Below, piece by piece: positions 6,491 to 53,990 of a stretch of 64,000 nucleotides of DNA. Below the pieces are notes generated by a model. That model did no database searches. It was given only the letters and a program-made list of their open reading frames with translations, and had not been told where the DNA came from. This DNA is from Marinilabiliaceae bacterium JC017 (lineage in GTDB: Bacteria; Bacteroidota; Bacteroidia; Bacteroidales; Marinilabiliaceae). The stretch's first letter is position 1; each line of letters begins with the position of its first letter. A program made the translations under genes and the position numbers. The stretch is taken from positions 1 through 64,000 of the forward strand of contig RHGE01000008.1 of assembly GCA_004296775.1 (NCBI GenBank), in the 5' to 3' direction.

Positions 6491-6671
6491 TCGCCGGCAC
6501 ATCCCAAAGGTTTCTGCCCTTTTCATGTCCAAAAATATCCATGTTCTATCCCCTATCATCTAATTTCGACATAGACACAGCGTTATGAATACTCTCGAAG
6601 AATCCAATAATATTCCCCGAGAGAAGGTAAATATAGCCCGGGAAATAGAAGATAATGAACGAGAACTTTTT

Positions 6672-6696
6672 ACTTTTCTGGCTTGTCCAGGTTAGG
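6672..6696. repeat. 25-bp dispersed repeat with copies near 47863 and 57371
   Basis: ACTTTTCTGGCTTGTCCAGG plus the next five bases recurs at 47862-47886 and, with changes, at 57371-57395. Those two copies sit at the end of a longer shared segment of about 100 bp; here only the end is recognisable. It contains the inverted pair CTGG-CTTGT-CCAG. Confidence 0.7.
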
Positions 6697-6844
6697 TAAT
6701 CCAATTTTTCTATTGTGCCGACCAAAGGTCAAGGGTAAAATGACAAAGCAGGGGGCTTCAAGTGATTTTTAAGTGCCACGGATAACTGCAGAGGAAGCAC
6801 AGTGAACCACAAAAACAGTTTCAGTCCAATAAAATCCACAAGTC

Positions 6845-7248
6845 ATGTCACCGTTAACCGGTCTCATGTTTACGTTAACCGGTGCCGTGGCAATATTTTC
6901 CGGTGATGTTTCAACGTAAAAACATCACGTGTATACGTGTACCGTTCATTGGGCAACATGTACCGGAGGTTCGTTTGCAAAAACAGGTGTTATTTCAACA
7001 TTTTTTTGCCTCTGGTTAACGTCAAAACAGACCCAAAAATGCAAACCGGTCACCCGTTAACGTGTACCGGTCATGTTTCTACGTTAAAACATCACATGTA
7101 CAAGTGTACAGCCCAATAGTATACGTTTCCCGGTCAGCGGTTAATGTGTACCTGGCACCGGGCAACGTTTCCCAAACAGCTGTATACGCTGACGGGACAA
7201 TGGTTGACACTGACCGATTTTCGTTCAATGGATTAACCATCTGTAAAA
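6845..7248. repeat. 21-bp-period degenerate tandem repeat (AACGTGTACCGGT-type units)
   Basis: Units begin at 7060, 7081, 7102, 7123, 7144, 7165, 7186, 7207 and 7228 with an unbroken 21-bp spacing. The typical unit start is ACGTGTACCGGTCA, with many variants. Similar units (GTTAACCGGT, GTACCGTTCA) extend upstream to about 6845, with one 1-bp phase slip near 7040. Read in frame, units give seven-residue blocks such as VNVYRSC, VYVSRSA, VNVYLAP and GNVSQTA, but stop codons and the slip break a long reading frame. No gene is supported here. Confidence 0.85.
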
Positions 7249-7292
7249 GGCTGTATCCATACACCCCCGTTCAGCGAAGCGTCTCGCTTCGT

Positions 7293-7500
7293 TATTAGTT
7301 GAAGAAAAATTATAACGACCGCACCCCAGTGTTCAATCCTCCGTAAGCCTCCCGTTTTGTATCCTTTCGCCGAGCACGTTTCCTTGCTTTACTTTATTTG
7401 AATAATGCTTATGGTGTGAATTTGAGATTAATGTTTAATTTAGGGGACGGAATTTTTCGACAAAGAATGGGATGGGCATATGTAAGATATAAAGCCTATG
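7293..7500 (+). repeat. Y module, copy 1 (upstream flank of an orphan gene)
   Basis: This stretch matches 36723-36907 closely and 10636-10800 more distantly. Shared landmarks are ATTAGTTGAAGAAAAATTAT, CAATCCTCCGTAA, TATCCTTTCGCC, TTTATTTGAATAATG, and GACAAAGAATGGGATGGGCA just before unrelated sequence begins. A perfect hairpin CGAAGCG-TCT-CGCTTCG lies just upstream at 7275-7291 and recurs imperfectly at 12264-12280. In each copy a different gene follows. Confidence 0.75.
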
Positions 7501-7547
7501 CTTTATATCCCAAGTTGTTCTTCATGCAAACCAACCATATTTCAAAA

Positions 7548-7958
7548 ATGAAAGTGTTATTTGAGACAGATCAATTGATAATTGAACATGAATTTGAAAG
7601 TGCTTTTCTAATTGATAAGAGTTCAGGAAAAAAAGTTGTTTCAGATGATTTTTATGGAGACCCAGAGTGTGGATTGATAAGTAGTAATAATGATTGGGCA
7701 ATTATTGCTGGTGAACACTTAACTGCTTGGAGAAAAAGCGTACCAGAAGAAGATCAATTAGTTCGCATTGAAAATGAGGACTTACAGTTGATTAAAGAAA
7801 TGAGATTAAAAACTCAGGATACAATTGAAATATTGATAGATCCTTGGAGTGAAAAGTCGGTAATATGGGAAATGAATATTAATGATTTGAGTTACAAAAA
7901 GATTAAAGACTTCCCTAATTCTCAGGAAACAAAGTACACAGATAAAATAGATTGGTAA
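7548..7958 (+). CDS. Orphan cytosolic protein in X/Y-flanked unit (136 aa)
   Basis: The frame is open from further upstream, but the ATG at 7548 is the better start because sequence before it belongs to the repeated Y module. The product begins MKVLFETDQLIIEHEFES, is acidic, and has no signal peptide or membrane segment. It contains DDFYGDPECGLISSNNDWAI and ends in TDKIDW. Base composition is strikingly AT-rich compared with the efflux genes on both sides, which suggests transfer. I do not recognise the family. Size, charge and context resemble immunity proteins of polymorphic toxins, but that is only inference. Confidence 0.55.
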   Translation: MKVLFETDQLIIEHEFESAFLIDKSSGKKVVSDDFYGDPECGLISSNNDWAIIAGEHLTAWRKSVPEEDQLVRIENEDLQLIKEMRLKTQDTIEILIDPWSEKSVIWEMNINDLSYKKIKDFPNSQETKYTDKIDW

Positions 7959-8133
7959 TAAAAAACACGAAAGCACAAGCCATCATAAAGTAGCCCTGGC
8001 TTTGGTGAGCTTTGGGAGTTCAGTTCCCGCGCCATCTAAGGCACAAACAAGAAAGCGAATATACCACACGCACCCATGTCCACTTCATATGGTGAGACCG
8101 TTACACCCCATTTAAAACACAAAACATACAAGA

Positions 8134-8658
8134 TTGAATTTTAAACAACAAATAGCTAAGTATAGAACCGGCAACCTATCAGACTGTCAACTACCTGACA
8201 TTGCTATATTAGGAATGCAAGAAGGTTTAGATTCTGAGTCATTAGTGATTCTTGCAGGTTTAAGTAAAAATGAAAGCTCATTTGTAATAATTGAGTATTT
8301 TGAAAAAGCCCTTGAAGAATTAAAACTAAGATTACCAGAAAGAAGAGAAGCAGCTTTGTTATACGCAGACGGATTAATTGATGATATTCTAAATGGAAAA
8401 CGAGAATTAATTGATGGAATTTATGAAATAAAAGATGATGCAATAAATAGCTTTGACTTCTTTTCTGAAAGTAAAAAGTATTGTTACGACAGTATTGGAT
8501 TTGAAGCTGTCTATGCATTGTTTGAAGATTATTATGACATAAATGAATATGGAAGCAGTTGGAGCGAAAAGAAGAAAACGAAAATGAAGAATAAAATTAA
8601 AACTGAACTGCTATTAGAATTAAAGAAGTGGAAGAATATAATAAAAAACGGGGTGTAA
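8134..8658 (+). CDS. Orphan helical protein in X/Y-flanked unit (174 aa)
   Basis: The frame begins at a TTG (8134) and encodes a mostly alpha-helical, lysine- and glutamate-rich cytosolic protein. It has a run FEKALEELKLRLPERREAA and a very basic C-terminus (SEKKKTKMKNKIKTE, then KKWKNIIKNG). No signal peptide is seen. The gene is strongly AT-rich. The intergenic stretch before it (7959-8133) shows nothing recognisable. The stop codon lies at the first bases of the repeated X module, so the gene end and module boundary coincide. I do not recognise the family; an immunity-type role is possible but unproved. The TTG start is uncertain and the 5' end may be truncated. Confidence 0.5.
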   Translation: MNFKQQIAKYRTGNLSDCQLPDIAILGMQEGLDSESLVILAGLSKNESSFVIIEYFEKALEELKLRLPERREAALLYADGLIDDILNGKRELIDGIYEIKDDAINSFDFFSESKKYCYDSIGFEAVYALFEDYYDINEYGSSWSEKKKTKMKNKIKTELLLELKKWKNIIKNGV

Positions 8659-9150
8659 TCGAGTAGCCAGCCGCCAGGCCAATAGCCTGGCGGAAAAGCT
8701 CTCACACCACCGTAGTACGCGGGCTTCGCCCCTTCCTTTCGCTCCAAAATGTCACCGGACATTTCAATCTCAGGAACATATACGGCGGTTCTCTACATCA
8801 TGGGGAATAGTGAAATATGATTTGTCGGTAAAGATGATAACATTTGTTTGTACATAGAAGCCAGAAAGATATCGCTACGTTTCTGGAGCCTTTCGGCAGT
8901 AAACGTATTCCAGCGATACTGTCCCCAGGATATGAACCAGGCCTCGATGATCCGAAGCGCGCAAGCCCGTTAAATAAGCGGGCCGGCGCAGGCGCGACGA
9001 AAATGAATGCGGGAATTCTAGCTTGCGGGTTGGAAAAAATTCATCGAGGAGGTGGGCTGAAGCTTTTATTTGACTAGCGTTTTTTGCTTCGTTTTTGGGG
9101 CAATGCCAAAAATAAAGTAGGGTTTGGGACGAAGTCCCGATAAAAAACAT
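8656..9150 (+). repeat. X module, copy 1 (downstream flank), longest copy
   Basis: It opens with AATCGAGTAGCCAGCCGCC, then a GC hairpin GCCAGGC-CAATA-GCCTGGC, then AGCTCTCACACCACCGTA and TATACGGCGGTTCTCTACAT. Copies start at 10291 and 11992. Its distal part (about 8930-9150: GATCCGAAGCGCGC, AAGCGGGC, GGTTTGGGACGAAGTCCC) is shared with 10570-10635 and, inverted, with 30050-30230. Short open frames on both strands are repeat by-products; no gene is supported. Confidence 0.75.
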
Positions 9151-9539
9151 TCATCATTAAACCATTATTAGATCAGTAAGAAGGTATGGTACCGGTAATG
9201 GAAAATGTTATAAGGATAAAGCAGGTCGCTTTGCTACGGGGCATTTGTTTGTTTTTTTTAATCACCCATTTTACAGGATTATAACAACAACCTCTGGTTA
9301 TTTAGCATGCTACATGCAATAAAAAACACCCATCCTTCTATCTTAGCCCCCAAGGATTACGTAAGAAACCCATAACACAGATCGGCGCCATCGTCCAACT
9401 TTATTTTATCCTTCATTAATCAATCGTTATTTTAGTTCCTGCATTTAACGGTAATAAACCAGCTTTTTGTTACTTTCGTTATACAACAAAGGATAAAACA
9501 CTTATAAGTTATGTGGCACACAAAGAAACCTAACTAAAA
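9151..9539. other. AT-rich intergenic stretch without recognisable gene
   Basis: Between the X module and the next orphan gene there is no open frame of note and no match to the other repeats in the window. The final 100 bp presumably hold the promoter of the following gene, but no convincing TAnnTTTG box could be fixed. Confidence 0.4.
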
Positions 9540-10349
9540 ATGGATAAAACCTTTAGGAAATTAACACCTAAAGAAGTCTTCTTTATATTTAAAGAGGAAC
9601 ACAGACTATGCAGTCAATTTGATTGTGAAGCTGGTCCTAACGTAGAGTTGACAATGGATTCTTCAATAAAGGAATGGCGATATTCAATGGATTTACTTCC
9701 GTGGCGAAAACTTGGAAACTATTTGAACGAGGAATTCGAGATTGACATTTCTAAAAATGAATGGAAATCTGTGCTAGAACCATCAAGAACAAAGAAACTA
9801 GGAGATGTATGTCGATTAATTTCTAAACATGCTCAAATTGAAATAATAAAACCAATCAAAATATTTGGAAAAGACTGCCTTTCAGCTTCTCTGTTTAAAA
9901 CAATCAAAATAAACTTAACTAGAAGAGGAGTTGATACTTCTGAACTGAAACCCTCTTCTTTGATTGAGCCATATTTAAAAAATTATTTCGGCGAACTGAT
10001 TGAGCAGATTAATAAAAATTATACTGGTGTTATTCCTGAATTAAAGACAACAGAAACAAAGTTGAATCAAATAAATTCAAGAATTTGGCTTGCATTTTTC
10101 CTATTTCTAATAGCTAGCTTTTTCTGGAATCCATTCTGGATTATTACGATAATTCTATTGATAATTGGATTGTATTCAGGAAATAGCGAGAAAACGGAAT
10201 TGGTAAAACAAAATGAAATGATGTTTATACCAGGTATCAAAACTTTTCGAGATTTAGTTGAAACAATAATTGAGAAAAAGTACGCCACACAATTGAGCAG
10301 CCAGCCTCCAGGCAATAACCTGGCGAAAAAACTCTCACACCATCATTGA
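9540..10349 (+). CDS. Orphan protein with two membrane segments (269 aa)
   Basis: The start is ATG at 9540. The first 175 or so residues are soluble and charged. A hydrophobic stretch of about 35 residues then follows (around 180-215, including IWLAFFLFLIASFF and WIITIILLIIGLY), consistent with a helical hairpin in the membrane, and a soluble tail of about 55 residues follows that. The gene is AT-rich. Its last 20 or so codons (after YATQLSS) are encoded by the beginning of X module copy 2, so the C-terminus appears to be altered by the module junction. No family was recognised. Confidence 0.55.
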   Translation: MDKTFRKLTPKEVFFIFKEEHRLCSQFDCEAGPNVELTMDSSIKEWRYSMDLLPWRKLGNYLNEEFEIDISKNEWKSVLEPSRTKKLGDVCRLISKHAQIEIIKPIKIFGKDCLSASLFKTIKINLTRRGVDTSELKPSSLIEPYLKNYFGELIEQINKNYTGVIPELKTTETKLNQINSRIWLAFFLFLIASFFWNPFWIITIILLIIGLYSGNSEKTELVKQNEMMFIPGIKTFRDLVETIIEKKYATQLSSQPPGNNLAKKLSHHH

Positions 10350-10800
10350 TAACTCTAGCTTCGCCTCCACCTTCCGATCCAAATATCCACCGGATTTTAA
10401 ATCTCAGGAACACTTGCAGCGATTCCATACATCATGGGAAACAGCGAATAATGTTTTGTCAGTAGAGATGAAGACATTTGGTTTTACATGGAAAACAAAG
10501 AGATATAGCCACATTTCTGAAGTCTTTAGGCAGTAAACGTATTCCAGCGATACTGTCCATAGGATATAAACCAAGCCTCGATGATCCGAAGCGCGCGAGC
10601 CCGTCAAATAAGCGGGCAGGCGCGACGAAAATAAGTCTCCCGTTTCGTATCCATTCGCCGGGTTTGTTTTCTTACTTTATTTTATTTAAATAATGATTAT
10701 GGTGTGATTTTAGGATTATTGTTTATCTTAGGAGGTCGAACTTTTCGATAAAGAATAGGGTGGGTATATGTGACACATAAAACACGTGCTGTTCATCTTA
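10291..10800 (+). repeat. X module copy 2 fused directly to Y module copy 2
   Basis: 10291-10635 aligns with 8656-9010 (CAGCCAGCCTCC, CACACCAT, ACGTATTCCAGCGATACTGT, GATCCGAAGCGCGCGAGCCC). At 10636 the sequence passes straight into Y-type sequence (TCTCCCGTTTCGTATCC, TTTATTTAAATAATG, AAGAATAGGGTGGG). This head-to-tail X-Y joint separates two unrelated genes and gives the clearest view of the unit boundary. No gene is supported inside it. Confidence 0.75.
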
Positions 10801-10871
10801 ATATCATTGAGCGTTCAAAATAATCTAGACAAAGAACCAATTTAGCAAACTAATACAAATCTTATATTTTT

Positions 10872-11984
10872 ATGTTACAAAAACTAATTTTACTTAAATC
10901 AATTGTCTTATTACTCCTGCTTTCTTCTTGTCATAGAAATGAAGAGTATCAGATTATTGGAGAAATAACTGGAGTCAAGGACAGTACAAAAGTTTATCTT
11001 CAAGATAGATTATTATTACAAGATATTGATAGTACGTATATCGTAAATAATGAGTTTCAGTTTGGGGGTTTTTTCGAATCTGAGCCACAGTTTTGTATGC
11101 TATACTTAAAGTCCAAAGGAAAACTTTTTTCTACATATTTACTAATGCAGAATGAAAAAGTCTTAATTAAAGGAGACTTAAGTGATTTTAATTCCAAAAC
11201 CTTATGTATACAAGGAGGAAAATATCAAGAAGATGTTAACCATTTAAATGAAGTTACACGGACATATTTGAACAAAAGAGATTCAATTGTGAATCTCTTC
11301 ATGATTGCACCTGATAGTATTAAGAGGAAAAAAACTGAGAAAACCTGGGCTACTGTTGCAAAGCTAGATAGTGTTCGTATATCAAAAACGATATCATTTA
11401 TAAAAGAGAATACCAATTCATATTTTTCATTAATAAACCTGTGGTGGTACCATCGAGAAATCCCCAAAGATACTTTGAAACTAATTTATGATAATTTTTC
11501 ACCAAATTTGAGTGAAACTGAATATGGAAATGCAATTGAATTTTATCTAAAGAATAATGAATTAAAAGAAGGTGATAATTATTTTGATTTTGAAGTTAAA
11601 GATATAAATGGAAACTCTTGTAGGTTGTCTGATGTGAAAAATAAATATATCCTTCTTAATTTTTCAAAACCTTATTGTGGTGCTTCAATTTACGCTGTAA
11701 ATCAATTTAAATGGGTAGAAAAAGACCATGGTGATTCGATTTCAATTGTAAATTTTTACGAAAGCCGCAATCCTAATTTATGGCATAAATTTGTTAATGA
11801 ATACAAAGTTCCAGGTTTAAATTTATGTGACGAAAAAGGTGCATTCAGTGAAATATTAATAAAGTATGGAATTTGGTCTTCCCCTACCTTCATTTTAATA
11901 GATGAAAAAGGGAAGATTAAAGATAAAAGTTCAGGTTGCGGTCCAGGATACATGAAGTGGTATTTGAAAAAGTGTATAAATTAA
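10872..11984 (+). CDS. DUF4369/TlpA-like thioredoxin-fold lipoprotein with a CxxS site
   Basis: This 370-residue protein starts with a lipoprotein signal (VLLLLLSSC; Cys at about residue 20). An N-terminal DUF4369-like beta domain (YQIIGEITGVKDSTKVYL) follows, then a helical middle, then a C-terminal thioredoxin fold from about residue 235. The fold has ILLNFSKPYCGAS where TlpA/ResA proteins have a WCxxC pair, so only the first cysteine remains. The cis-proline region is intact (GIWSSPTFILID). The protein is likely anchored in an envelope membrane facing the periplasm. Without the resolving cysteine it may act as an isomerase-like or substrate-binding thiol protein, or be non-catalytic. It is AT-rich and flanked by Y and X modules. 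Confidence 0.8.
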   Translation: MLQKLILLKSIVLLLLLSSCHRNEEYQIIGEITGVKDSTKVYLQDRLLLQDIDSTYIVNNEFQFGGFFESEPQFCMLYLKSKGKLFSTYLLMQNEKVLIKGDLSDFNSKTLCIQGGKYQEDVNHLNEVTRTYLNKRDSIVNLFMIAPDSIKRKKTEKTWATVAKLDSVRISKTISFIKENTNSYFSLINLWWYHREIPKDTLKLIYDNFSPNLSETEYGNAIEFYLKNNELKEGDNYFDFEVKDINGNSCRLSDVKNKYILLNFSKPYCGASIYAVNQFKWVEKDHGDSISIVNFYESRNPNLWHKFVNEYKVPGLNLCDEKGAFSEILIKYGIWSSPTFILIDEKGKIKDKSSGCGPGYMKWYLKKCIN

Positions 11985-11989
11985 ACGCC

Positions 11990-12290
11990 ATACAATCGAG
12001 AAGCCAGCTGCCAGGCCATTAACCTGGCGGGAAAGCTCTCGCACCACCATACGTACGGGTGGCGTATACGGCGGTTCTCTACATCATGGGGAACCGCGAA
12101 TGATGGCTTGTTGGTAAAGATGAAGACAATTGGTTATACATGGAAACCAAAGAGATATTGCCAAGTTTTTTTGAAGGCTTCCGTCTGTAATGGTAGAACC
12201 TGCTATTGTATTAGGCTTTTTATTATTACCCAGCCGACTATATAACTTATACCCCACGTTCAGCGAAGCATCTCGCTTCGTTGTCACCAT
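11990..12290 (+). repeat. X module, copy 3
   Basis: It starts with ATACAATCGAGAAGCCAGC, 6 bp after the stop of the lipoprotein gene, followed by the GC hairpin (GCCAGGCCATTAACCTGGCG), CACCACCATACGTACGGGT and TATACGGCGGTTCTCTACAT. Homology to copy 1 ends at about 12175. The imperfect CGAAGC/GCTTCG hairpin at 12264-12280 matches the one in front of Y copy 1. 12291-12380 shows nothing further. Confidence 0.7.
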
Positions 12291-12381
12291 CCGACCTCCG
12301 GCCGAATACCAATTCACTCAACACTTCTGCTTAACAGATCATCCAACTGTTTGTCATTTCGTGGTAATAACACCCACCTCT

Positions 12382-12425
12382 AAAAAAGGAAGAGACGCCC
12401 AAATTGGACGTCTCTTCCTTTTTTA
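12382..12425. terminator. Bidirectional terminator between the orphan-gene zone and the metal-efflux operon
   Basis: A long A-start/T-end stem AAAAAAGGAAGAGACG (from 12382) pairs with CGTCTCTTCCTTTTTT (to 12424-12425). It lies 18 bp beyond the stop of the reverse-strand channel gene and would also stop transcription arriving from the left. Confidence 0.85.
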
Positions 12426-12442
12426 TTGAATCCATTTACACC

Positions 12443-13618
12443 CTAAGGCTGATAGGCCTGTAACCGTGCAGCAGCCAGTTGCAGCTCACGCCGAACGTCC
12501 AGGGCTTTATTCACGGTGTCGTAATAAATCTGGATCTCCATCAGGTATTCCAGGATAGATATCTCTCCTGCTTCCAAAGCTGTTGTGAGCAGATCTGTAT
12601 TATTCAGGCTTTGCAAAGCCTGCTGGTAATCCTGATCCATCCGTTTTAGCTGTAGCGCTTTTTCGTGCAGCACCTTAAGTCCGTGATACAGATAAAGACG
12701 GGTATCCTCTACCCTGCTTTGCGCAGCCAATCCTTCGGCTTTCACTTTCTTAACGGTGTTTTTATTTTCCCACAAAGGGATGGACAACCCAACGGTCACC
12801 CCCTGGTACTGCTCCCCTACCACATTTTCCAAGGTATAGCCGGCACTCACCTTAGGCAGGTTTAATGCCTTGTTGAGCTTTTCATTCAGCTGATTCACCT
12901 CTATCCCCTGCTTTTGAAGAACATACTGAGGTATCGCATCCACATACTGGCTAAACCAATCATCAAAATTCAACGGCACCAGGGCGTCAGGCAGGCGGGT
13001 CGTCTTTATTTCAATAGGATTTCCCCCATTGAGGGCTGCCAGCTGTAACAGCACGGTCTTTTGTTCTGTAGCATTAGCTTCCAACTCTTTGCGGGCATTC
13101 AGTAAGTTCAGATCAGCTTTGTTGCGCTCCAGGATATTAGCCTCTCCCTCTTTAAACATAGCATGATAAGCCGAGGCGATTTTTTCAGCATGCGTTAACC
13201 GCACAGCTAACGCCTCAGCATAAGCATTCAGGTATACCATTTGATAACAAAGTTCACGGGCCTCCAACATCACCTCCGTCCTACGCATCTGATAAGTCAC
13301 ATCAACCTGTTGATTCAGTGATTCACTCATCTTTCGCCGATAATGATAAGCAGTGGGGAAATCAAACTCCTGGGTAATACTCAAATCCTGGCGATTGCCA
13401 ATGGCCTCCGGAGATCCCCAAAGGTATCCAAACTCTACCTTGGGATTAGCCGGGTTAAGCCCCATTCTGTTATCCAGTTTAACGGCTTCGGTGGTCTGCC
13501 GCATAACCTTCAACGTCTGGTTATTCATCTCTATTTGATGCATAACCTCATCCACACTTTCTTGTGCTTGAAGGCCTGTCCACAGCAAGAGACCATATAT
13601 GGTTAGTTGTATTTTCAT
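12443..13618 (-). CDS. TolC-family outer-membrane channel of a metal RND system (CusC-like)
   Basis: This 391-residue protein has a signal peptide (MKIQLTIYGLLLWTGLQAQ) and TolC-type coiled-coil repeats. KLNKALNLPKVSAGYTLENV marks the second half, and ITQEFDFPTAYHYRRKMS is typical of channels paired with heavy-metal pumps. It is the last gene of a reverse-strand operon (adaptor, permease, channel) and ends at the bidirectional terminator. It would provide the outer-membrane duct for metal export. It is separated from the permease gene by 314 bp of repeat sequence, so it may have its own promoter. Confidence 0.88.
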   Translation of the reverse strand: MKIQLTIYGLLLWTGLQAQESVDEVMHQIEMNNQTLKVMRQTTEAVKLDNRMGLNPANPKVEFGYLWGSPEAIGNRQDLSITQEFDFPTAYHYRRKMSESLNQQVDVTYQMRRTEVMLEARELCYQMVYLNAYAEALAVRLTHAEKIASAYHAMFKEGEANILERNKADLNLLNARKELEANATEQKTVLLQLAALNGGNPIEIKTTRLPDALVPLNFDDWFSQYVDAIPQYVLQKQGIEVNQLNEKLNKALNLPKVSAGYTLENVVGEQYQGVTVGLSIPLWENKNTVKKVKAEGLAAQSRVEDTRLYLYHGLKVLHEKALQLKRMDQDYQQALQSLNNTDLLTTALEAGEISILEYLMEIQIYYDTVNKALDVRRELQLAAARLQAYQP

Positions 13619-20285: not shown

Positions 20286-20463
20286 CATTAAAAGGAAAGG
20301 GATATCTTGATATTCCAATTTTCCATCAAAACCAATCTCATTGTCCTTTGCACCCCTTAGCATTCATTCATTCAATCACCTAAGAAGCAAACATCCGGGC
20401 ATATGCAATTGTGAAATTTTGTGGAAAAAGATCATTTTTTTCAAAAATACCAACTTTTAGGCA

Positions 20464-20494
20464 TTGGTTAATAGCTATAATATTCCCATTTTTG
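20464..20494 (+). promoter_or_regulatory. Candidate promoter conserved between the two duplicated modules
   Basis: TTGG at 20464 and CATTTTTG at 20487-20494 resemble the -33 and -7 elements with about 19 bp between. The same arrangement is kept at 24624-24653 (GCATTGGTTAATA, ATTCCCATTTTTA), although surrounding non-coding DNA has diverged. A TTG reading-frame start inside this element is therefore rejected. Confidence 0.45.
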
Positions 20495-20499
20495 CAGCC

Positions 20500-20877
20500 G
20501 TGAACAGACAAGGTTATATATACAATCACATCATTAAGAAGGTAAGCGTAATGCTTATTGTGATGTTTGCCGCCCTGGTGGTAAACAACGCCTTGTTTAC
20601 CCACATGCATAAAACGGCCTCAGGCCAATGGATAACTCACGCACACCCCTTTTCAAAGGATTCTCAAAAAAAGCATACACACACCGATCAGGAGCTTTGC
20701 TTTTACCAGCAAATCCAGATTTATACCGAAGCTTCAGAATGCAATCCGGAACCTACCGAACTACTGAGTTCTGAATACCACTACCTGGAATATACCTCTT
20801 CCATCGATTGTGTGTATATCGATGATGCCGCTATCCCGCGCGCACCTCCTGTTTTAGATACTTACTTTCTTGTCTGA
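20500..20877 (+). CDS. Small exported protein with His cluster and RAPPV motif, copy 1
   Basis: Starting at the GTG at 20500 gives about 125 residues: a polar start (NRQGYIYNHIIKKVS), a hydrophobic segment (MLIVMFAALVVNNALF), then a mature part with THMHKTASGQWITHAHPF, KKHTHTDQELCF, and the conserved end AAIPRAPPV. The ATG at 20551 is an alternative start. The predicted promoter lies so close to the GTG that the leader would be almost absent, which favours 20551; conservation of the upstream residues in copy 2 favours the GTG. It precedes a TonB-dependent receptor and is duplicated together with it, so the two probably act on the same metal or metallophore. This function is inference. Confidence 0.65.
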   Translation: MNRQGYIYNHIIKKVSVMLIVMFAALVVNNALFTHMHKTASGQWITHAHPFSKDSQKKHTHTDQELCFYQQIQIYTEASECNPEPTELLSSEYHYLEYTSSIDCVYIDDAAIPRAPPVLDTYFLV

Positions 20878-21179
20878 AAGATTCAATCCTTACAGAACTA
20901 TCTAGTCCGATATTTTACTACAGATACCAGGTGTAATTATATACTTGCTATCTGGGAAAAATCAAATTACTGGCTCTGAAATCATCGATTATCAGGCTAT
21001 TTCGCTTCACAGCATTGAGCTCGGTTAATCAATTTATTTCAATACCCATAATCTTGAAACAGAAGATCTGTTGACCTTCTGACGACAGGTATTTCTGCAC
21101 CTTTTTGGATAATCCTACAATTTTCTCTGATCTGATAACAATTGATCAGAGACACACACAATTATAACCTATAAACAAA

Positions 21180-23582
21180 ATGACAACTAAAAAACGTTTC
21201 ATCCAACAGATTTTATTCTGTACCCTTTTCTTATGCAGTATTTTCATCAATACTAACCTCCTTGCTCAATTACCCCCCCCGGAACCTATCTGTGGGATAC
21301 AAGGGATTATTACCAGTGAAGGCGAACCCCTGCCCTTTGCAACAGTCAGCATCAATGCAACCACTTTGGGCACAGCATCGGATCTGGCCGGAGAGTTTAC
21401 CCTTGAGCAATTACCAGAAGGTACTTTTACTGTGAGAGCTCAGGCGTTGGGATATAAATCCATTGAAAAAGAGATCACAGTTAAAAAAGGTATAGTAACA
21501 AAACTTTCCTTTGATCTGGAAAGTGATGTATTAGGCATTGAACAAGTAGTAGTCACTGCCGACCGCAATAAAAAGAAACGAACAGAAGCTTCTGTGATCG
21601 TTACTACATTATCTCCAAAACTGCTTAATACCACCCAATCGGTAACATTAAGCGACGGCCTCAATTATTGCCCCGGATTACGCATGGAGACCAATTGCCA
21701 AAACTGTGGGTTCACACAGCTACGGATGAATGGTCTGGAAGGACCCTATTCTCAAATTCTTATTAACAGCCGTTCTATATTCAGTGGCTTAGCAGGCGTA
21801 TATGGACTGGAACTAATCCCGGCCAATATGATTGACCGCATCGAAGTGGTACGCGGCGGGGGATCTGCATTATATGGTAGTAATGCCATAGCAGGTACCG
21901 TTAACCTCATCACCAAAGACCCTATCACCAACTCCTATGAAGTAAACATGCAGTATAGCTCCATTGGGGTGGGTGCCGAGGACGGTGATCCGGCATCGGA
22001 TTATAACATCAATATGAACACCTCACTAGTTAGTGATGATAAAAACACAGGTTTAGCCATCTTTGGTTTCTTTCGAGACAGAGAGCCTTTTGATGCCAAT
22101 GATGACGATTTCTCAGAGATGTCAAAAATGAAGAACCTCACTCTTGGAGCCCGCCTGTTCCACCGTCCTGGATACCGCAGTAAAATCACTGCCGACTTCT
22201 TCCGGATTAACGAATCACGCCGGGGAGGTAACAAATTTGAATACCCCAACCATGAAGCAGACATCTCAGAAGCACTGGATCATGAAATAACTACCGGAGC
22301 GCTTACTTACGAACGCTTTGTGGGCACAGGCGGTCATTGGTCTGTATATGGCTCCACTCAACATGTGGGACGAGACTCCTACTATGGCGCTGACCAATCT
22401 CTTTCCGACTATGGTTACACTGAAGACCTGACCTATACCATCGGCTCTCAGTTTAAATCGGACTTTGGATTAAATACCCTTTTGGTTGGTCTTGAAACAG
22501 TAGGCGGCAACCTAACAGATAAAAAACTGGGACATCCCGATTTCGAAAATATCGTTATTGAGAATAATGAAATAGTAGATTTACCACACACAGAAAATAA
22601 CCTGGTAGCAGATCAAAAATCACAAACACACGGGGCCTTTTTACAGTTCGACCGTAAGTTTGGGGCACTCAAGGCTTCTGCCGGTCTACGCTACGACTAC
22701 TATAAAATCACAGATAACCTAAAAGAAGCCGGAGACAACGACGGACATGTGGTTAGTCCCCGCGTGAACCTGCTTTGGAACATCAGACCAGCATTACAGT
22801 GGCGCATTAGCTACTCACAAGGTTACAGGGCCCCTCAAATCTTTGATGAAGACCTACACATTGAAACCTCATCGGCCCGCAAGGTAATTCACAAAAATTC
22901 TCCCGATCTAAAACAGGAGACCAGTTACAGCTGGATGTCATCGATCGATTATAATCGTAAAATAGGAAACTGGAACGTTGGCCTGTTGGCTGAAGCCTTC
23001 TATACCCATTTGGATAATCCTTTTGTAAATGAAATTGGCGAACCCGATGAGAACGGTACCGTAATATATACCCGGGTAAATGCCGAAAATGGTTCTACCG
23101 TGAAAGGTCTGAACCTGGAAGCAACACTTTCTCCATACAAAGATCTGTTCATGAAAACCGGTTTCACTTTCCAAAACAGTGAATACAAAGACCCACAAGA
23201 TTTTAATGAAAAGCAGTATTTCCGCACCCCGGATAAGTATGGCTTTTTAACTATCGACTGGGATGTTGCTCCAAAGCTTTGTTTATCATCCAGTGGCACC
23301 TATACCGGCTCCATGTTAGTACCATACTTCGGACCAAATGCATCAAACCCGGACGAGGGTGAATTACGCGAATCATCCGACTTTTTTGATTTAGGCCTGA
23401 AAGCGGAATACAAAGTGAAGATTTCCAACCTACCATTCAAACTATATGGTGGTGTGAAGAATATCTTTAACAGCTATCAGGATGATTTTGACTCAGGAGC
23501 AGGCCGTGATCCAGGTTATGTATATGGTCCAGCAGCACCCCGTACCATTTACTTTGGTATTAAAATGAGCAACTTATTTTAA
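21180..23582 (+). CDS. TonB-dependent receptor, copy 1 (800 aa)
   Basis: This is an outer-membrane active transporter. It has a signal peptide (QILFCTLFLCSIFINTNLLAQ is the hydrophobic core region, trimmed to positions about 9-29). A carboxypeptidase-regulatory-like beta-sandwich (IQGIITSEGEPLPFATVSIN, about residues 39-110) and a plug domain follow (NTTQSVTLSDGLNYCPGLRM; IDRIEVVRGGGSALYGSNAI). A 22-strand-type barrel ends in FGIKMSNLF. The plug contains ETNCQNCGFTQLRMNG with a CxxC pair, suggesting a metal or metal-complex substrate. An 8-C run at 21273-21280 codes for Pro-Pro-Pro just after the signal peptide. A hairpin CTCTGATC/GATCAGAG at 21125-21151 lies in the leader and is absent from copy 2. 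Copy 2 at 25339 is about 90 percent identical by eye. Confidence 0.93.
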   Translation: MTTKKRFIQQILFCTLFLCSIFINTNLLAQLPPPEPICGIQGIITSEGEPLPFATVSINATTLGTASDLAGEFTLEQLPEGTFTVRAQALGYKSIEKEITVKKGIVTKLSFDLESDVLGIEQVVVTADRNKKKRTEASVIVTTLSPKLLNTTQSVTLSDGLNYCPGLRMETNCQNCGFTQLRMNGLEGPYSQILINSRSIFSGLAGVYGLELIPANMIDRIEVVRGGGSALYGSNAIAGTVNLITKDPITNSYEVNMQYSSIGVGAEDGDPASDYNINMNTSLVSDDKNTGLAIFGFFRDREPFDANDDDFSEMSKMKNLTLGARLFHRPGYRSKITADFFRINESRRGGNKFEYPNHEADISEALDHEITTGALTYERFVGTGGHWSVYGSTQHVGRDSYYGADQSLSDYGYTEDLTYTIGSQFKSDFGLNTLLVGLETVGGNLTDKKLGHPDFENIVIENNEIVDLPHTENNLVADQKSQTHGAFLQFDRKFGALKASAGLRYDYYKITDNLKEAGDNDGHVVSPRVNLLWNIRPALQWRISYSQGYRAPQIFDEDLHIETSSARKVIHKNSPDLKQETSYSWMSSIDYNRKIGNWNVGLLAEAFYTHLDNPFVNEIGEPDENGTVIYTRVNAENGSTVKGLNLEATLSPYKDLFMKTGFTFQNSEYKDPQDFNEKQYFRTPDKYGFLTIDWDVAPKLCLSSSGTYTGSMLVPYFGPNASNPDEGELRESSDFFDLGLKAEYKVKISNLPFKLYGGVKNIFNSYQDDFDSGAGRDPGYVYGPAAPRTIYFGIKMSNLF

Positions 23583-23606
23583 TTTTCAATACCCTTTTTT
23601 AACCTT

Positions 23607-24268: not shown

Positions 24269-24605
24269 ATGAGCACCTCTAAGAAACAAAATAGAATATC
24301 AGCCAAAGATCTTCTGGCAATTATTCCGGATGAGCAAATATCAAATATTGCAAAAGAAACCAATGTCAATTACTACACGAAGATATTGGATGGCAAAAGC
24401 CTTCTTTATCTGATTCTATATTCTTTAATAGAGCAAAAAAGAAACAACTTAAGGACCATAGAGAATATCTTCAACAGCCTTCAATTCAAGCTTCTATTCA
24501 ACTTTGATACATCAAAAACGGTAAAATATAATTCAATTTCAGAACGTTTGAGTGTGATCAAGTTAGAGTTCTTTGAGAAATGTTTTATGCTTTTTCATGA
24601 AACAA
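24269..24605 (+). pseudogene. Truncated IS4-family transposase (DUF4372-type N-terminus)
   Basis: From the ATG at 24269 the frame encodes DLLAIIPDEQISNIAKETNV, LDGKSLLYLILYSLIEQKRN and FNFDTSKTVKYNSISERLSV, typical of the N-terminal domain of IS4-family transposases. At about 24603 this sequence stops and the duplicated receptor module begins, at CCAACTTTTAGGCATTGG. The whole catalytic DDE part is missing. The frame runs on to a stop at 24631 inside the module. The position exactly at the duplication edge suggests the element took part in the duplication or was cut by it. Confidence 0.75.
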
Positions 24606-24659
24606 AATACCAACTTTTAGGCATTGGTTAATAATCGAAATATTCCCATTTTTACAAGC

Positions 24660-25016
24660 GTGAAGGAACAAGACTATAGATACAATCACATTATTAAAAA
24701 AGTAAGCATAATGCTTATTGTGATGTTTGCCGCCCTGGTGGTAAACAAAGCCTTGTTTACTCATTTCCATATAACGGCCTCTGGCCAATGGATCTCTCAC
24801 GCACACCCTTTTTCAAAGGATTCTCAAAAAAACCACACACACACCGATCAGGAGATTTGTTTTTTCCAGCAAATTCAGACTTATTCCCAGACACCGGAAT
24901 ACAACCCGGTACCCTCCGAACTGCTTGGTTCGGAATACCACTACCTGGAATATAATTCCTCTATTTACTGTGTGTATATTGATGATGCCGCCATTCCGCG
25001 CGCACCTCCTGTTTAG
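24660..25016 (+). CDS. Small exported protein with His cluster and RAPPV motif, copy 2
   Basis: Paralogue of the gene at 20500. The GTG at 24660 gives a frame starting KEQDYRYNHIIKKVSIMLIV; the ATG at 24711 is the alternative. Shared features are the hydrophobic segment, THFHITASGQWISHAHPF, HTHTDQEICF and the end AAIPRAPPV. It stops right after this motif, eight residues shorter than copy 1. It is followed by TonB receptor copy 2. Many amino-acid differences fall in the middle (SQTPEYNPVPSELL), so the two have been separating for some time. Confidence 0.65.
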   Translation: MKEQDYRYNHIIKKVSIMLIVMFAALVVNKALFTHFHITASGQWISHAHPFSKDSQKNHTHTDQEICFFQQIQTYSQTPEYNPVPSELLGSEYHYLEYNSSIYCVYIDDAAIPRAPPV

Positions 25017-25338
25017 CCTCCTATTTTTTACTTATTGAAGAGAATCAATCCTTACAGAACTATCTGGCCTGTTCTATTATTACAGATACCAGAAGTAATG
25101 GTATAGCTGTTATCTGATTGATATCATATTACAGACATTGAAATCATCGATTATCAAACTGTTATACTTCACTGTATCCGGTTCCTGGAAATAATCTGTT
25201 TCAATACCTGAAAGCTTGGAACAGGAGATCTGTTTACATTAAGGAAGAATCTCTGCACCATCAAAGATACCCTGAAAGTTATCACTTGGACTAATTATAA
25301 CTATTCAAAAACAAACACAATTATAACCTATAAACAAA

Positions 25339-27741
25339 ATGACAACTAAAAAACGTTTCATCCAACAGATTTTATTCTGTGCCCTTTTCTTATGCAGTAT
25401 TTTCATCAATACTAGCCTCCTTGCTCAATTACCACCTCCGGAACCTATCTGTGGGATACAAGGAGTAATTACCGGTGAAGGCGAACCCCTGCCCTTTGCT
25501 ACTGTGAGCATCAATGCCACCACTCTGGGTACAGCATCAGATCTCGCCGGTGAGTTTACACTTGAGCAATTACCAGAAGGCACCTTTACTATCAGAGCCC
25601 AGGCACTGGGATATAAACCCATTGAAAAAGAGATCACAGTAAAAAAAGGTATAGTAACAAAACTTTCCTTTGATCTGGAAAGTGATGTGTTAGGCATTGA
25701 GCAAGTAGTAGTCACTGCCGATCGCAATAAAAAGAAACGAACAGAAGCTTCGGTGATCGTTACTACATTATCTCCAAAACTGCTTAATACCACCCAATCG
25801 GTGACGCTAAGCGACGGCCTCAATTATTGCCCGGGCTTACGCATGGAAACCAATTGCCAAAATTGTGGATTCACACAGCTACGGATGAATGGTCTGGAAG
25901 GACCCTATTCTCAAATTCTTATTAACAGCCGTTCTATTTTCAGTGGCTTAGCAGGCGTATATGGGCTGGAACTAATCCCTGCCAATATGATTGACCGCAT
26001 TGAAGTGGTACGCGGCGGCGGATCAGCATTATATGGTAGTAATGCCATTGCAGGTACCGTTAACCTCATCACTAAAGATCCAATCACCAACTCTTATGAA
26101 TTAAACATGCAGTATAGCTCCATTGGCGTGGGCACTGAGGACGGCGATCCGGCATCGGATTATACCATCAACATGAACACCTCACTGGTTAGCGATGATA
26201 AAAACACAGGATTAGCCCTGTTCGGTTTCTTCCGGGATAGAGAACCTTTTGATGCCAACGATGATGATTTCTCTGAAATGCCTAAAATGAAGAACCTGAC
26301 ATTGGGAGCCCGCCTGTTCCACCGTCCGGGATACCGGAGTAAAATCACGGCCGACTTCTTCCGGATTAACGAATCACGCCGGGGAGGTAACAAGTTTGAA
26401 TACCCCAACCACGAAGCAGATATTTCAGAGGCATTGGATCACAACATAACCACCGGCGCCCTCACTTACGAACGCTTTGTGGGCACAGGCGGCCATTGGT
26501 CGATCTATGGTTCTACCCAGCATGTGGGACGAGACTCCTACTATGGTGCCGATCAATCTCTTGTCGATTATGGTTACACCGAAGACCTGACCTATACCAT
26601 CGGTTCACAGTTTAAATCCGACTTTGGATTAAACACCCTGTTGGTGGGCCTTGAAACTGTAGGCGGTAACCTGACCGATAAGAAACTGGGACATCCCGAT
26701 TATGAAAATATCGTTATTGAGAATAATGAGATCATAAATTTACCACACACAGAAAATAATTTAGTAGCCGACCAGGAAACTCAAACTCATGGTGCCTTCT
26801 TACAATTCGATCGTAAATTTGGAACACTGAAGGCTTCTGCCGGTCTGCGCTACGACTATTATAAAGTCAATGATAATCTGGAAAAACTGGGTGATAATGA
26901 TGGCCACGTACTTAGTCCCCGCGTTAACCTTCTTTGGAGCATTATCCCATCATTACAATGGCGTGTAAGTTTCTCCCAAGGTTACCGCGCTCCTCAGCTC
27001 TTCGATGAAGATTTACACATTTCCGCTTCTGAAGGTATACGGATTATTCATCAAAATTCTCCGGATCTGGAACAGGAGACCAGTTACAGCTGGATGTCAT
27101 CAATGGATTATAATACCAACATTGGAACCTGGAAAGCTGGGCTGTTGGCAGAAGCATTCTATACTCATCTGGACAATCCATTTGTTAATGAACTTGGAGA
27201 TGCTGATGAAGATGGAACCAGAATTTATACCCGTGTTAATGCTGAAAACGGTTCTACTGTAAAAGGCATCAACCTGGAAGCAACACTTTCTCCCTACAAA
27301 GATTTATTCGTAAAAACCGGCTTCACCTTCCAAAACAGTGAATACAAAGATCCGCAAGATTTTGATGAGAAAAAATACCTCCGCACTCCGGAAAAATATG
27401 GCTTCCTGACCATCGACTGGGATGCCACTTCAAAACTTTGTTTATCATCAAGCGGTACCTATACCGGTTCAATGCTTGTTCCCTATTTCTTTTCTACAAT
27501 TGATAAACCAGATGAAGGTGAACTACGCGAATCATCCGACTTTTTTGATTTAGGACTGAAAGCAGAATACAAAGTGAAAATTTCGGGATTACCATTCAAA
27601 CTCTATGGTGGGGTGAAGAATATCTTTAACAGCTACCAGGATGACTTTGATAAAGGATCAAAAAGAGATCCGGGTTATATATATGGTCCTGCTGCACCTC
27701 GTACCATCTACTTTGGTATTAAAATGAGCAACTTATTTTAA
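25339..27741 (+). CDS. TonB-dependent receptor, copy 2 (800 aa)
   Basis: Same length and domain order as the receptor at 21180: signal peptide, carboxypeptidase-regulatory-like domain, plug with NCQNCGFTQLRMNG, barrel ending FGIKMSNLF. The two differ mostly by silent changes in the first half. Amino-acid changes are concentrated toward the C-terminal half (for example EDLHISASEGIRIIHQNSPD here), in parts likely to be extracellular loops. This suggests maintained function with some divergence of ligand contacts. The poly-C run of copy 1 is interrupted here (CCACCTCCG). Confidence 0.93.
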   Translation: MTTKKRFIQQILFCALFLCSIFINTSLLAQLPPPEPICGIQGVITGEGEPLPFATVSINATTLGTASDLAGEFTLEQLPEGTFTIRAQALGYKPIEKEITVKKGIVTKLSFDLESDVLGIEQVVVTADRNKKKRTEASVIVTTLSPKLLNTTQSVTLSDGLNYCPGLRMETNCQNCGFTQLRMNGLEGPYSQILINSRSIFSGLAGVYGLELIPANMIDRIEVVRGGGSALYGSNAIAGTVNLITKDPITNSYELNMQYSSIGVGTEDGDPASDYTINMNTSLVSDDKNTGLALFGFFRDREPFDANDDDFSEMPKMKNLTLGARLFHRPGYRSKITADFFRINESRRGGNKFEYPNHEADISEALDHNITTGALTYERFVGTGGHWSIYGSTQHVGRDSYYGADQSLVDYGYTEDLTYTIGSQFKSDFGLNTLLVGLETVGGNLTDKKLGHPDYENIVIENNEIINLPHTENNLVADQETQTHGAFLQFDRKFGTLKASAGLRYDYYKVNDNLEKLGDNDGHVLSPRVNLLWSIIPSLQWRVSFSQGYRAPQLFDEDLHISASEGIRIIHQNSPDLEQETSYSWMSSMDYNTNIGTWKAGLLAEAFYTHLDNPFVNELGDADEDGTRIYTRVNAENGSTVKGINLEATLSPYKDLFVKTGFTFQNSEYKDPQDFDEKKYLRTPEKYGFLTIDWDATSKLCLSSSGTYTGSMLVPYFFSTIDKPDEGELRESSDFFDLGLKAEYKVKISGLPFKLYGGVKNIFNSYQDDFDKGSKRDPGYIYGPAAPRTIYFGIKMSNLF

Positions 27742-27769
27742 TTTTCAATACCACTTTTACTTTTACCTT

Positions 27770-29661: not shown

Positions 29662-30049
29662 GGAACAAAATAGATTATAAGATGATAGATTGCTAGATAA
29701 TAGACTGGGGGACTTCATCCTTTTTTTACTCTTGACCTGGGAAAATACATAGACATAAGTATCAAGATGCATGACCGGGAGGATCATATGGTTAGAAACT
29801 CTGCACCTCAGCATCTCTGCGGTTATTGAAAAGATGAAAAATCGAAAGACGAAAATTTGAAAAGGTAAAACAAGAGAAGGAGAATTAAATTCTCTGCGCC
29901 TCAGCGTCTCTGCGGTTTATTAAATTGATCATGAGATGATAGATCGTTAGATAATAGTCAGAGATGGCCGTTGTCCATATTGACATCAAAAGCTAATAGT
30001 TTTACAAGCCTATTTGATGATATATAAGCATTAGTCTTTCAGTAATAGT

Positions 30050-30230
30050 TTTATTGGGACGTTGTCCCAAACCCTACTTCATTTTTGGCATTACCCCAAA
30101 AACGAAGCAAAAAACGCTTCCACCCACCTCCTTGATGAATTTTTGCTAACCCACAGTCCGGAATTCCCTCATTCATCTTCGTCGCGCCAACGCCGGCCCG
30201 CCTATTTGACGGGCTCCCACGCTTCCCAAC
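30050..30230 (-). repeat. Inverted partial copy of the X module
   Basis: It matches the distal half of X copy 1 (8930-9150) in reverse. GGGACGTTGTCCCAAACCCT, GCATTACCCCAAAAACGAAG, CACCTCCTTGATGAATTTTT and ATTTGACGGGCTC are shared. No neighbouring orphan gene or Y module is present here. Confidence 0.75.
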
Positions 30231-30626
30231 ATCACGGTTCGACCCGTCGTTTAGCTTTTTGTATGATAGTGCCGATTTATTCAGGTCGACACTGCGTTTG
30301 CCCCCGCTATCGCCGATTTGCAATCGATGCCTTGTGAATTAATAGATATCACCTATGGATAGAAAGTAAAAGATTCATGAACCGAAAGGAATCTTTCTTA
30401 TCACTTTTACTGTGCCAGGAGAAGCAGAGAGGATTGTTCTACACATCAACTAAAAGGATTCAAATACTCCTAATTCATTTTCTTTTCGCACGGTCACCCT
30501 TTTCCCCTCCTGAAAGAATTAGGAGGGGTGATTTTCATTGAGTATTCAATGAAAATCGGGGTGGTTTGATTATAACATAATCAGTAAGGATTAGAAACTC
30601 TGCACCTCAGCGTCTCTGCGGTTATT

Positions 30627-36570: not shown

Positions 36571-36722
36571 AAAAACCACATAAAAGCATAGCGCAATAAG
36601 AGGCAACTTAATCAATCAGGTTTAGTATACAATAATGATTGCAAAATATACAATATATTTCCAGTGACAAAGATGAAACTCTATACCGCATTAACAGAAC
36701 AACACCAACAATAGGGATTAAT

Positions 36723-36907
36723 TAGTTGAAGAAAAATTATAACTATCGCACACCTAGTTCCAATCCTCCGTAAATTTCCCTTTTTGAATCCTTTCGCCTA
36801 TTTTATTTCCATTTTTTTATTTTATTTGAATATTGATTATGGTATAATTTTGAGATTAATGTTTATTTTAGGAGATTGAATTTTTTGACAAAGAATGGGA
36901 TGGGCAT
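36723..36907 (+). repeat. Y module, copy 3
   Basis: ATTAGTTGAAGAAAAATTAT at the start, CCAATCCTCCGTAA, ATCCTTTCGCC, TTTATTTGAATA, GAGATTAATGTTTA and GACAAAGAATGGGATGGGCA at the end match Y copy 1 (7293-7500) almost throughout. What follows is again unrelated to what follows the other copies. Confidence 0.8.
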
Positions 36908-37102
36908 ATGCGAAATGAAAAACTTAAAGATATAGATAACTTCACCGTGAAGAAACTTAATACTCAAGGACAATTAATACACAAAACACAACAGGAAAGT
37001 AACTTAATAAAAATCGACCTCTCTGATTTTAATAAGGGATTATACATTATGACTATTGATTCTCCGACAAAAATATTCAGAACTAAATTCCAAAAATTAT
37101 GA
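36908..37102 (+). pseudogene. T9SS type A C-terminal sorting-domain fragment (64 aa)
   Basis: The frame contains VKKLNTQGQLIHKTQQES, then IKIDLSDFNKGLYIMTIDS and ends FRTKFQKL. This is the recognised pattern of the Por/type IX secretion C-terminal domain (tail with G-Q-L, L-x-x-G-x-Y-x-x-x-I, and a basic end). On its own it cannot be a functional secreted protein. It seems to be the last part of a larger cargo gene whose front was replaced by the Y module. The stop overlaps the start of the next gene (ATGA). Confidence 0.7.
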
Positions 37103-50997: not shown

Positions 50998-51260
50998 ACT
51001 TTTACCCCCATGTTGTTCAAATTGGAGGGAAATATATAGAGAGGATAGAAGTCAGAAGTTAGAGAGGGGAAATAGATGGAAACACTTAGAGATAAATGGA
51101 GATACATTGAAACAGATAGAAATATTTTTAAACAACCTGTACTTACCAAAGAACAATCTCTGCGTCTCAGCGCCTCAGCGCCTCCGCGGTGTATAATGAA
51201 TCTTGTTAAAACAACAAACTAAAGGTAACACCCCTCGAAGAGGCTTTTTTTCAGGGTACT
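50998..51260. repeat. Composite repeat with 10-bp-phased GAAA units (copy E1)
   Basis: It starts CTTTTACCCCCATGTTGTTC, has a phased block at 51069-51128 (six GAAA/GAGA decamers), then AACAACCTGTACTTACC, CTGCGTCTCAGCGCCTC, AATCTTGTTAAAACAAC and TCGAAGAGGCTTTTT. Related copies lie at 53596, 53991 and, inverted, 63134. A reverse frame across it is not a gene. Confidence 0.85.
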
Positions 51261-53955: not shown

Positions 53956-53990
53956 AATGACATTTCTGAAAAAACATAAGCGCTTAGGAA

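Follow-up and report, generated by a model that had tools for sequence, protein, structure and literature searches.

The window analysed here, 64,000 nucleotides (nt) of Marinilabiliaceae bacterium JC017 (positions 1 to 64,000 of contig RHGE01000008.1, our C468, assembly GCA_004296775.1), is part of a 6.65-Mb genome in 500 contigs, the only genome of its genus. At 7293–12290 it contains four unrelated AT-rich genes (29–31% GC, versus 47–49% in five flanking efflux genes) with repeated non-coding modules, X and Y, behind and before them, a pattern that the initial annotation had read as a possible gene-exchange system and that the copies found again bear out. We propose that this zone is, with high probability, a small cluster of integron-type gene cassettes without an integrase of its own, that a recombinase encoded elsewhere in the genome moves the cassettes, and that an intron of the group IIC-attC type has invaded the R″ boxes at which the cassettes end.

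Modules of the zone and the intron within them

Module Y was recovered at 7293–7520, 10632–10781 and 36721–36910, and copies of the X type at 8650–8934, 10291–10567 and 11994–12190. X proved to be a composite of two sequences, X1 and X2, rather than one module. The inverted part of X reported near 30 kb is present (30049–30233) and is made of X2 only; behind the gene ending at 37485, where a 5′ remnant of X had been supposed, BLAST (E ≤ 1e-5) found no X1 remnant; and where X had been said to pass directly into Y at 10635, X1 is indeed followed by Y, with a short piece of X2 (10569–10632) between them. Module boundaries do cut coding ends, as had been noticed: the final codons of gene 3 (9540–10349) run into the intron described below. 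The start of the gene 1 open reading frame (ORF) within Y is spurious, since Y reaches only to 7513 and the start box (R′) is followed by its first in-frame ATG at 7524; the gene from there to 7958 has no Pfam match at E ≤ 0.1 and no NCBIfam match at E ≤ 0.01.

DNA searches of the window's own genome, in which 40 candidates were scored of 126 for X1, 302 for whole X and 46 for Y, so that the counts are lower bounds, returned at least 41 matches to X1 at 40 sites (contig C495 gives two pieces); these do not include the copy at 11994 in the window. A same-strand ORF of at least 70 amino acids (aa) ends no more than 65 bp from the start of 28 of the 41 matches; three of the 41 have no testable ORF. 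The genes preceding X1 are AT-rich (median 31% GC) and mutually unrelated: 38 proteins compared at E ≤ 1e-3 gave one related pair, plus one C495 gene counted twice. For Y there are at least 25 matches, mostly conserved at the right edge up to a GTT and diverging after it; in the loci read, Y precedes genes in the same orientation, and runs of such units occur on several contigs. X2 (8935–9150) is a separate repeat, unrelated to X1, that accounts for most of the at least 55 matches to whole X. Palindrome-rich, about 210 bp long and present at more than 40 listed places in the genome, at times in short clusters (C38, C465, C487), it was set aside as a dispersed repeat and not as a part of the cassette. 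Another short palindromic intergenic repeat (AGCGAAGCGTCTCGCTTCG.. then CCGGCCTCCGGCCG) lies at 12253–12315 and at several places behind X1, often joined to truncated X1.

Read on the opposite strand, X1 consists of the final codons of a group II reverse transcriptase (RT) followed by intron domains 5 and 6 (D5, D6). The same element on C495 has two RT pieces (TIGR04416, E = 1.5e-28 and 2.2e-24; fragments, both under the whole-protein cut-off), and the Rfam models of D1–D4, RF02001 and RF01998, match this element and copies in relatives. The first 82 nt of X1 score 40.2 bits with Intron_gpII (RF00029; gathering score 40). Rfam recognises the intron only on better copies (C495, relatives); in the window it gives nothing at gathering scores, and at E ≤ 5 only presumed chance matches in 6500–13000. 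Most copies are 5′-truncated or internally deleted, and an insert of about 60 nt lies within D5 at 36 of 43 X1 sites, so they are unlikely to be active introns. The intron is antisense to the gene and positioned within the R″ box. Two copies with a surviving 5′ end (C495 and locus L191) have the junction TTGT/T, provided that the intron starts GTGTGCCC, a placement in which a GTGTGTG run allows 2 nt of play. For group IIC-attC introns, PMC7923331 gives the bottom-strand R″ at TTGT/T, antisense to the cassette, as the insertion site. Judged by these sequence marks, X1 is the remnant of a group IIC intron inserted backwards, present at most capture sites examined in this genome. Among the family's 71 genomes, at least 21 contain X1-like sequence (at most 11 candidates scored per genome).

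Cassette ends and hairpin sites

The cassettes share one layout: a start box R′ (GTT-R-N6-ATT..), the gene or genes, an attC-like site made of R″ (..AAC-N6-Y-AAC), an arm, a loop and a second arm, and then the GTT of the next cassette. The start (GTT-N7) is the complement of the cassette's own end, for example GTTACACCCC at 8100 and GGGGTGTAA ending at 8658. On contig C155 (minus strand), the last 52 residues of a recombinase are followed by GTTATGCGC, a 574-aa gene, GCGCATAAC and an intron-free hairpin ending GTTAGCTGC; the second cassette ends GCAGCTAAC, and the third starts GTTGGCGGTA, ends TACCGCCAA and is followed by the intron. Here, therefore, each cassette start complements its own end. 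This contig also provides an empty site behind cassette 1 (..GCATAAC followed directly by ACGCGATATAG.., no intron) and a filled one behind cassette 3 (..CCGCCAA, intron, CACGCAGTATATT..), a pair that places the junction at GTGT/T, and its intron-free site folds better than shuffled sequences (z −2.7).

Partners for the R″ boxes were scored at 40 X1 sites; the remaining three of the 43 (L060 2788, L060 3745, L125 6869) offered no position for a YAA junction and were excluded. The best R′ partner matched at 10 of 11 positions at 10 of the 40 sites, versus 1.1% for permuted pairs, and in nine of these ten pairs the sole mismatch was the outermost base; a partner with at least 9/11 was found at 17 sites (13.5% permuted). 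The GTT at the end of Y acts as the R′ partner of X1 sites in loci L063 (10/11) and L060 (10/11 and 9/11). Only this GTT is conserved in the core, R comes next and later positions vary, so that the consensus GTTRRRY does not apply; R after GTT was imposed in the strict search, and without it C or T stands before AA at 41 of 43 X1 junctions. Within the window, the pair 8100/8650 is perfect and 9508/10284 has one mismatch. A second perfect-scoring pair, 60543/62100, has no intron and no surrounding array and is read as chance, and because the strict scan with one mismatch allowed gives four pairs on the plus strand and three on the minus strand, a single window pair is no proof by itself.

Between a strict R″ and the next strict R′ we found 39 distinct intron-free sites, 29 of them 131–142 nt long, boxes included. 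With the boxes removed, RNA parameters and mononucleotide shuffles, 37 of the 39 had a fold z below −2 (mean −4.5); with DNA parameters the bottom strand was the more stable in 33 of 39 (18 of 23 with one site per locus). Transition mismatches between the arms form a wobble in the bottom strand 99 times and the reverse 9 times, with 36 sites leaning one way, none the other and three ties; the 99 wobbles are not independent events, as some positions belong to conserved motifs, and the features by which the sites were found lie outside the hairpin arms. The sites thereby combine complementary R″/R′ boxes with an imperfect hairpin, the features that define attC sites.

Two duplications bear on mobility. 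In Arenibacter arenosicollis (L291) the first cassette behind the recombinase has an identical copy further along, the identity running for 773 bp from its GTT to the following one, and the flanks of the two are unrelated (31% and 24% identity over 100 nt). Likewise, in the single-contig genome G020 (L277) a 562-bp cassette is duplicated from GTT to GTT with flanks of 23% and 25% identity. Both look like the footprint expected of site-specific cassette insertion with a crossover at G/TT.

Table 1. Features assigned in the 64-kb window (window coordinates).
Position	Strand	Feature	Basis
7293–7513	+	Y module, tail of a long attC-like unit, abuts the start box of the next cassette	Genome matches; right edge
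7514–7523	+	R′ (start box) of cassette 1, GTTGTTCTTC	Sequence; Y-end GTT pairs with X1 sites in L063 and L060
7524–7958	+	Cassette gene 1, orphan	
7967–8099	+	Probable attC, intron-free and decayed, separating cassettes 1 and 2; one base inserted in its end box	Position and sequence only
8100–8109	+	R′ of cassette 2, GTTACACCCC	Perfect partner of 8650–8658
8134–8658	+	Cassette gene 2, orphan	
8650–8658	+	R″ of cassette 2, GGGGTGTAA, interrupted by the intron	
8659–8902	-	X1, antisense group IIC intron remnant (RT gene end, D5 with insert of about 60 nt, D6)	
8935–9150	+	X2, dispersed repeat, outside the cassette	
9508–9517	+	R′ of cassette 3, GTTATGTGGC	One mismatch to its R″
9540–10349	+	Cassette gene 3, orphan; final codons extend into the intron	
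10284–10292	+	R″ of cassette 3, GCCACACAA	
10293–10567	-	X1 intron remnant	
10569–10632	+	X2 fragment	
10632–10781	+	Y remnant; R′ not recognised at its end	
10872–11984	+	Cassette gene 4, lipoprotein-like, DUF4369 and thioredoxin-like domain	Pfam
11987–11995	+	R″ of cassette 4, GCCATACAA; partner R′ not found (8/11 only)	
11996–12190	-	X1 intron remnant without the D5 insert	
36721–36910	+	Isolated Y copy preceding the small gene 37099–37485	

Elsewhere in the window, a direct repeat (20444–23599 and 24604–27758, spacing 4.16 kb) carries an 800-aa gene in each copy and is 72–90% identical by segment. A degenerate tandem repeat with a 10-bp unit (GGAAACAGAT-like) occupies 53609–54182 and 51031–51155, with a related inverted stretch near 63192–63317.

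A recombinase at the head of arrays

A PF00589 search of C468 revealed no tyrosine recombinase on this contig. The type that heads cassette arrays occurs in the window's genome on C23 and at the end of C155, with an attachment site about 95 bp past the stop. The C-terminal residues of the C23 protein equal the C155 fragment, one unknown excepted, and the DNA behind the two genes agrees, with three differences, up to a GTT at which different cassettes start. Both copies (L119 and L121, minus strands) have a terminator-like inverted repeat between the recombinase and the first cassette, followed by the attachment site. C23 has one strict cassette, far from its recombinase, and C262 has none. In Marinilabilia salmonicolor MSL42, a complete 379-aa recombinase lies 99 bp ahead of the first cassette, and in G020 the recombinase heads an array of at least eight strict cassettes.

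This type of recombinase (E ≤ 1e-60) is present in 41 of 71 genomes of the family. Loci from 30 of the 41 were used to assess linkage to arrays. In 23 of these genomes 860 bp or more of sequence follows the gene, and 14 of the 23 have their first strict R′ 28–314 bp past the recombinase stop. Strict cassettes in 27 loci of relatives number 34 sense versus 0 antisense (54 versus 6 if one mismatch is tolerated). A general test for palindromic cassettes, being symmetric and useless as a control (133 sense, 153 antisense), was discarded as evidence and the strict directional test used instead. In public genomes, where the best 80 loci were taken and counts are again lower bounds, nearly all loci belong to Bacteroidota, with a few records labelled Nitrospirae, Spirochaetes, Chlorobiota and Desulfurellales. 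Among the 53 loci where 1 kb or more follows the gene, 31 have a strict directional cassette and none an antisense one; over all 80 loci there are 76 strict cassettes in 304 kb behind the gene, two in 620 kb before it and none antisense, and in 23 loci the first R′ is 28–122 bp past the stop. Longest ORFs (≥80 aa) run in the cassette direction in 189 of 208 candidates (overlapping candidates, one mismatch allowed). A recombinase gene with an adjoining attI-type site beside the array, as in integrons, is found here as well, and taken together these features indicate that the system is an integron-like means of gene capture that is widespread in Bacteroidota.

Two further observations concern this gene. 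In genome G046, pieces of the array-heading recombinase gene repeatedly have as their neighbour another tyrosine recombinase gene (269 aa), accompanied by a partner of 387 aa that may also be split (L191 6962–8930, L192 8117–10086, L193 9881–11850, L199 7963–9933), as if an insertion element were targeting the array-heading gene. Contigs of several relatives end 54–1227 bp behind the array-heading recombinase (G002:C209, G047:C13, G028:C61, G029:C139; L261, L263, L267, L272), a pattern that would follow if assemblies break at repeated attC sites.

What defines an IntI protein is an additional domain lying between its catalytic boxes (PMC9668308; PMC7790495). The recombinases described here lack this IntI-specific domain (I2 helix): each has exactly one of each catalytic box, and the spacing from the GLR to the HxLRH box is 92–97 in all of the best 80 public proteins and 92–93 in 19 of 19 from the family (G020 included), compared with 135, by alignment, in IntI4 (2a3v). 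The spacing was first taken as the one nearest to 93, and a repeat without that choice gave the same result. The IntI model TIGR02249 exceeded its cut-off in 0 of 71 genomes of the family, its listed hits being split around positions 182–238, whereas NF040815 of NCBIfam ('site-specific tyrosine recombinase/integron integrase') matched 23 of 23 aligned recombinases at E ≤ 1e-20. For the catalytic part, XerA and IntI4 are about equal by fold, and XerA-type enzymes are best by sequence. The N-terminal approximately 75 residues form a small, confidently predicted domain (pLDDT 92). It matched PF07443 (HARP) in 1 of 23 recombinases (2.6e-4) and in 1 of 10 N-termini at E 0.024; in a profile search of the PDB the HARP structure 4o66 (E 0.03) was outranked only by two designed coiled coils, and HARP ranked first in Foldseek (E 0.076). 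VIA gave HARP a Z of 3.9 and also listed XPB (Z 5.4–5.6) and translation-factor folds (Z about 5.5), a range that is common by its own note. The domain may thus weakly, if repeatedly, resemble the SMARCAL1 HARP domain and the XPB N-terminal domain, no match being significant alone except PF07443 in 1 of 23.

Competing explanations and relation to known systems

In the scheme that we favour for the zone, a tyrosine recombinase of the C23/C155 type would insert and excise cassettes at the GTT core, with the folded bottom strand as its probable substrate. A group IIC-attC type intron would then have retrohomed repeatedly into the R″ boxes, antisense to the genes, leaving mostly 5′-truncated or internally deleted copies as X1, and its insertion would lock the cassettes. 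The sequence itself shows cassette-end complementarity, hairpins, recombinase–array linkage, duplication endpoints and the identity and insertion point of the intron, all of which support this scheme. In the initial annotation an unknown recombinase acting in trans had been suggested, and this idea fits, since the array-heading type is encoded on C23 and at the end of C155, and no tyrosine recombinase was found on C468; the proposed gene exchange stands likewise, as cassette capture.

Several results weigh against this scheme. The probable intron-free site of the window (7967–8099) folds no better than shuffles (z −0.15). Of the C155 recombinase only the last 52 aa are present, at the edge of the contig, and there are unknown bases in the C23 copy. 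No strict cassette start lies within 320 bp of the recombinase in 9 of 23 genomes, own C23 included, although in two of these genomes cassettes start further downstream. The best R′ reaches only 8/11 or less at 23 of 40 X1 sites, so that many cassettes in this genome would be decayed. Finally, the scheme does not account for the inner part of Y, for which BLAST against loci from other genomes gave a single chance-level match.

Exchange of genes by homologous recombination between X and Y, the other mechanism suggested at the outset, could act in addition, as different cassettes share X1–Y units of 0.6–0.9 kb at 85–92% identity, aligned in one or two pieces (L060, L063, L064, L069). As the main mechanism it is very unlikely: the duplications in relatives end exactly at the GTT core between unrelated flanks, the complementary boxes are cassette-specific, and the modules appear to be recombination sites (the end of Y is R′, the left edge of X1 is R″) with an inserted group II intron. 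Still less probable is that the modules are mere debris of group IIC introns inserting behind gene ends, with no cassette system at all. X1 is group II intron sequence, which bears out by half a finding that the initial annotation had named as speaking against its own reading, and group IIC introns target terminators (PMC7923331); the same architecture with the same cassette ends is, however, intron-free in arrays of many genomes, C155 has an empty site, and the duplicated units run from GTT to GTT. A reading of the Y–gene–X1 units as insertion sequences or Helitron-like elements was dropped given the R′/R″ boxes and the empty site.

No more probable than intron debris is a canonical IntI integron whose integrase was missed in the draft assembly. 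Sites resembling attC with IIC-attC introns are what an integron would lead one to expect, the genome is in 500 contigs, and a review counts Bacteroidota among integron-bearing phyla (PMC8618304); yet no family genome passes the IntI model cut-off, the IntI insertion is absent from the public and family recombinases compared, and in the single-contig G020 a recombinase without it heads the array. The least likely alternative is that the genes are invertible, phase-variable segments of a tyrosine recombinase. Bacteroidota have many invertons, and each gene does lie between inverted repeats of about 10 bp, but gene direction is largely uniform, the cassette-end motifs are directional (76 versus 0), and the duplicated units contain the hairpin site and stop at GTT.

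A broader possibility, which we advance tentatively and hold to be somewhat less than an even chance, is a second, non-IntI mode of integron, in which a Xer-like recombinase without the I2 helix would use a junction-reading, HARP/XPB-like domain at its N-terminus to recognise attC-type hairpins folded from single strands; HARP domains are readers of junctions between single- and double-stranded DNA. Such an enzyme might be the missing Xer–IntI intermediate or have an independent origin, and would supply cassettes throughout Bacteroidota. The IntI-specific domain is held in PMC7790495 to be the innovation enabling single-strand recombination, with intermediates said to be lacking. Across many Bacteroidota genera, arrays that have hairpin sites and duplicated cassettes lie behind a recombinase in which this domain is missing; they put the question within reach of a test and give access to a large and apparently unsampled reservoir of orphan cassette genes. 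The intron-filled genome offers a test bed for whether group IIC-attC introns help form cassettes or freeze them, and if whole dead X1–Y units pass from gene to gene, this would bear on how genes acquire attC sites. Such arrays were not described in the titles or abstract openings found in open-licence literature, which is no proof of absence.

By a count based on the IntI-specific domain, Bacteroidota contain very few complete integrons, IntegronFinder 2 giving one in Bacteroidetes proper, in Salinibacter ruber (PMC9024848); the system described here is spread over the phylum. It shares with integrons the arrays of mostly same-direction orphan genes with an R″/R′ hairpin site behind each, the recombinase and attachment site at the array head, the GTT core, the cassette duplication footprints and signs of bottom-strand folding. 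It differs in a recombinase that lacks the IntI-specific insertion, has an extra N-terminal domain and points array-wise, with the attachment site past its stop codon, and in a core of GTTR plus cassette-specific 7-nt boxes in place of GTTRRRY. It thus appears to work like an integron, and falls outside the formal class on the integrase-specific domain and the full GTTRRRY core. The catalytic part matches XerA and archaeal XerC-like recombinases (5hxy, 4a8e) best by sequence, and by fold they are among its top matches, whereas here the enzyme is tied to hairpin cassette arrays and fused to the domain of about 75 aa. With group IIC-attC introns, X1 shares the group II RT/maturase, D5–D6 and insertion antisense to the cassette at the bottom-strand R″ TTGT/T; it differs in its number, with at least 40 sites occupied in a single genome and a complete RT gene absent from nearly all of them, in the foreign D5 insert at 36 of 43 sites and in host sites that belong to a non-IntI system. 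The zone itself, with cassette ends at 8100–8658 and 9508–10292, no PF00589 match on C468 and sites broken by introns, may be akin to a cluster of two or more attC sites lacking a nearby integrase (CALIN), here one that appears to have been invaded by introns of the group IIC-attC type.

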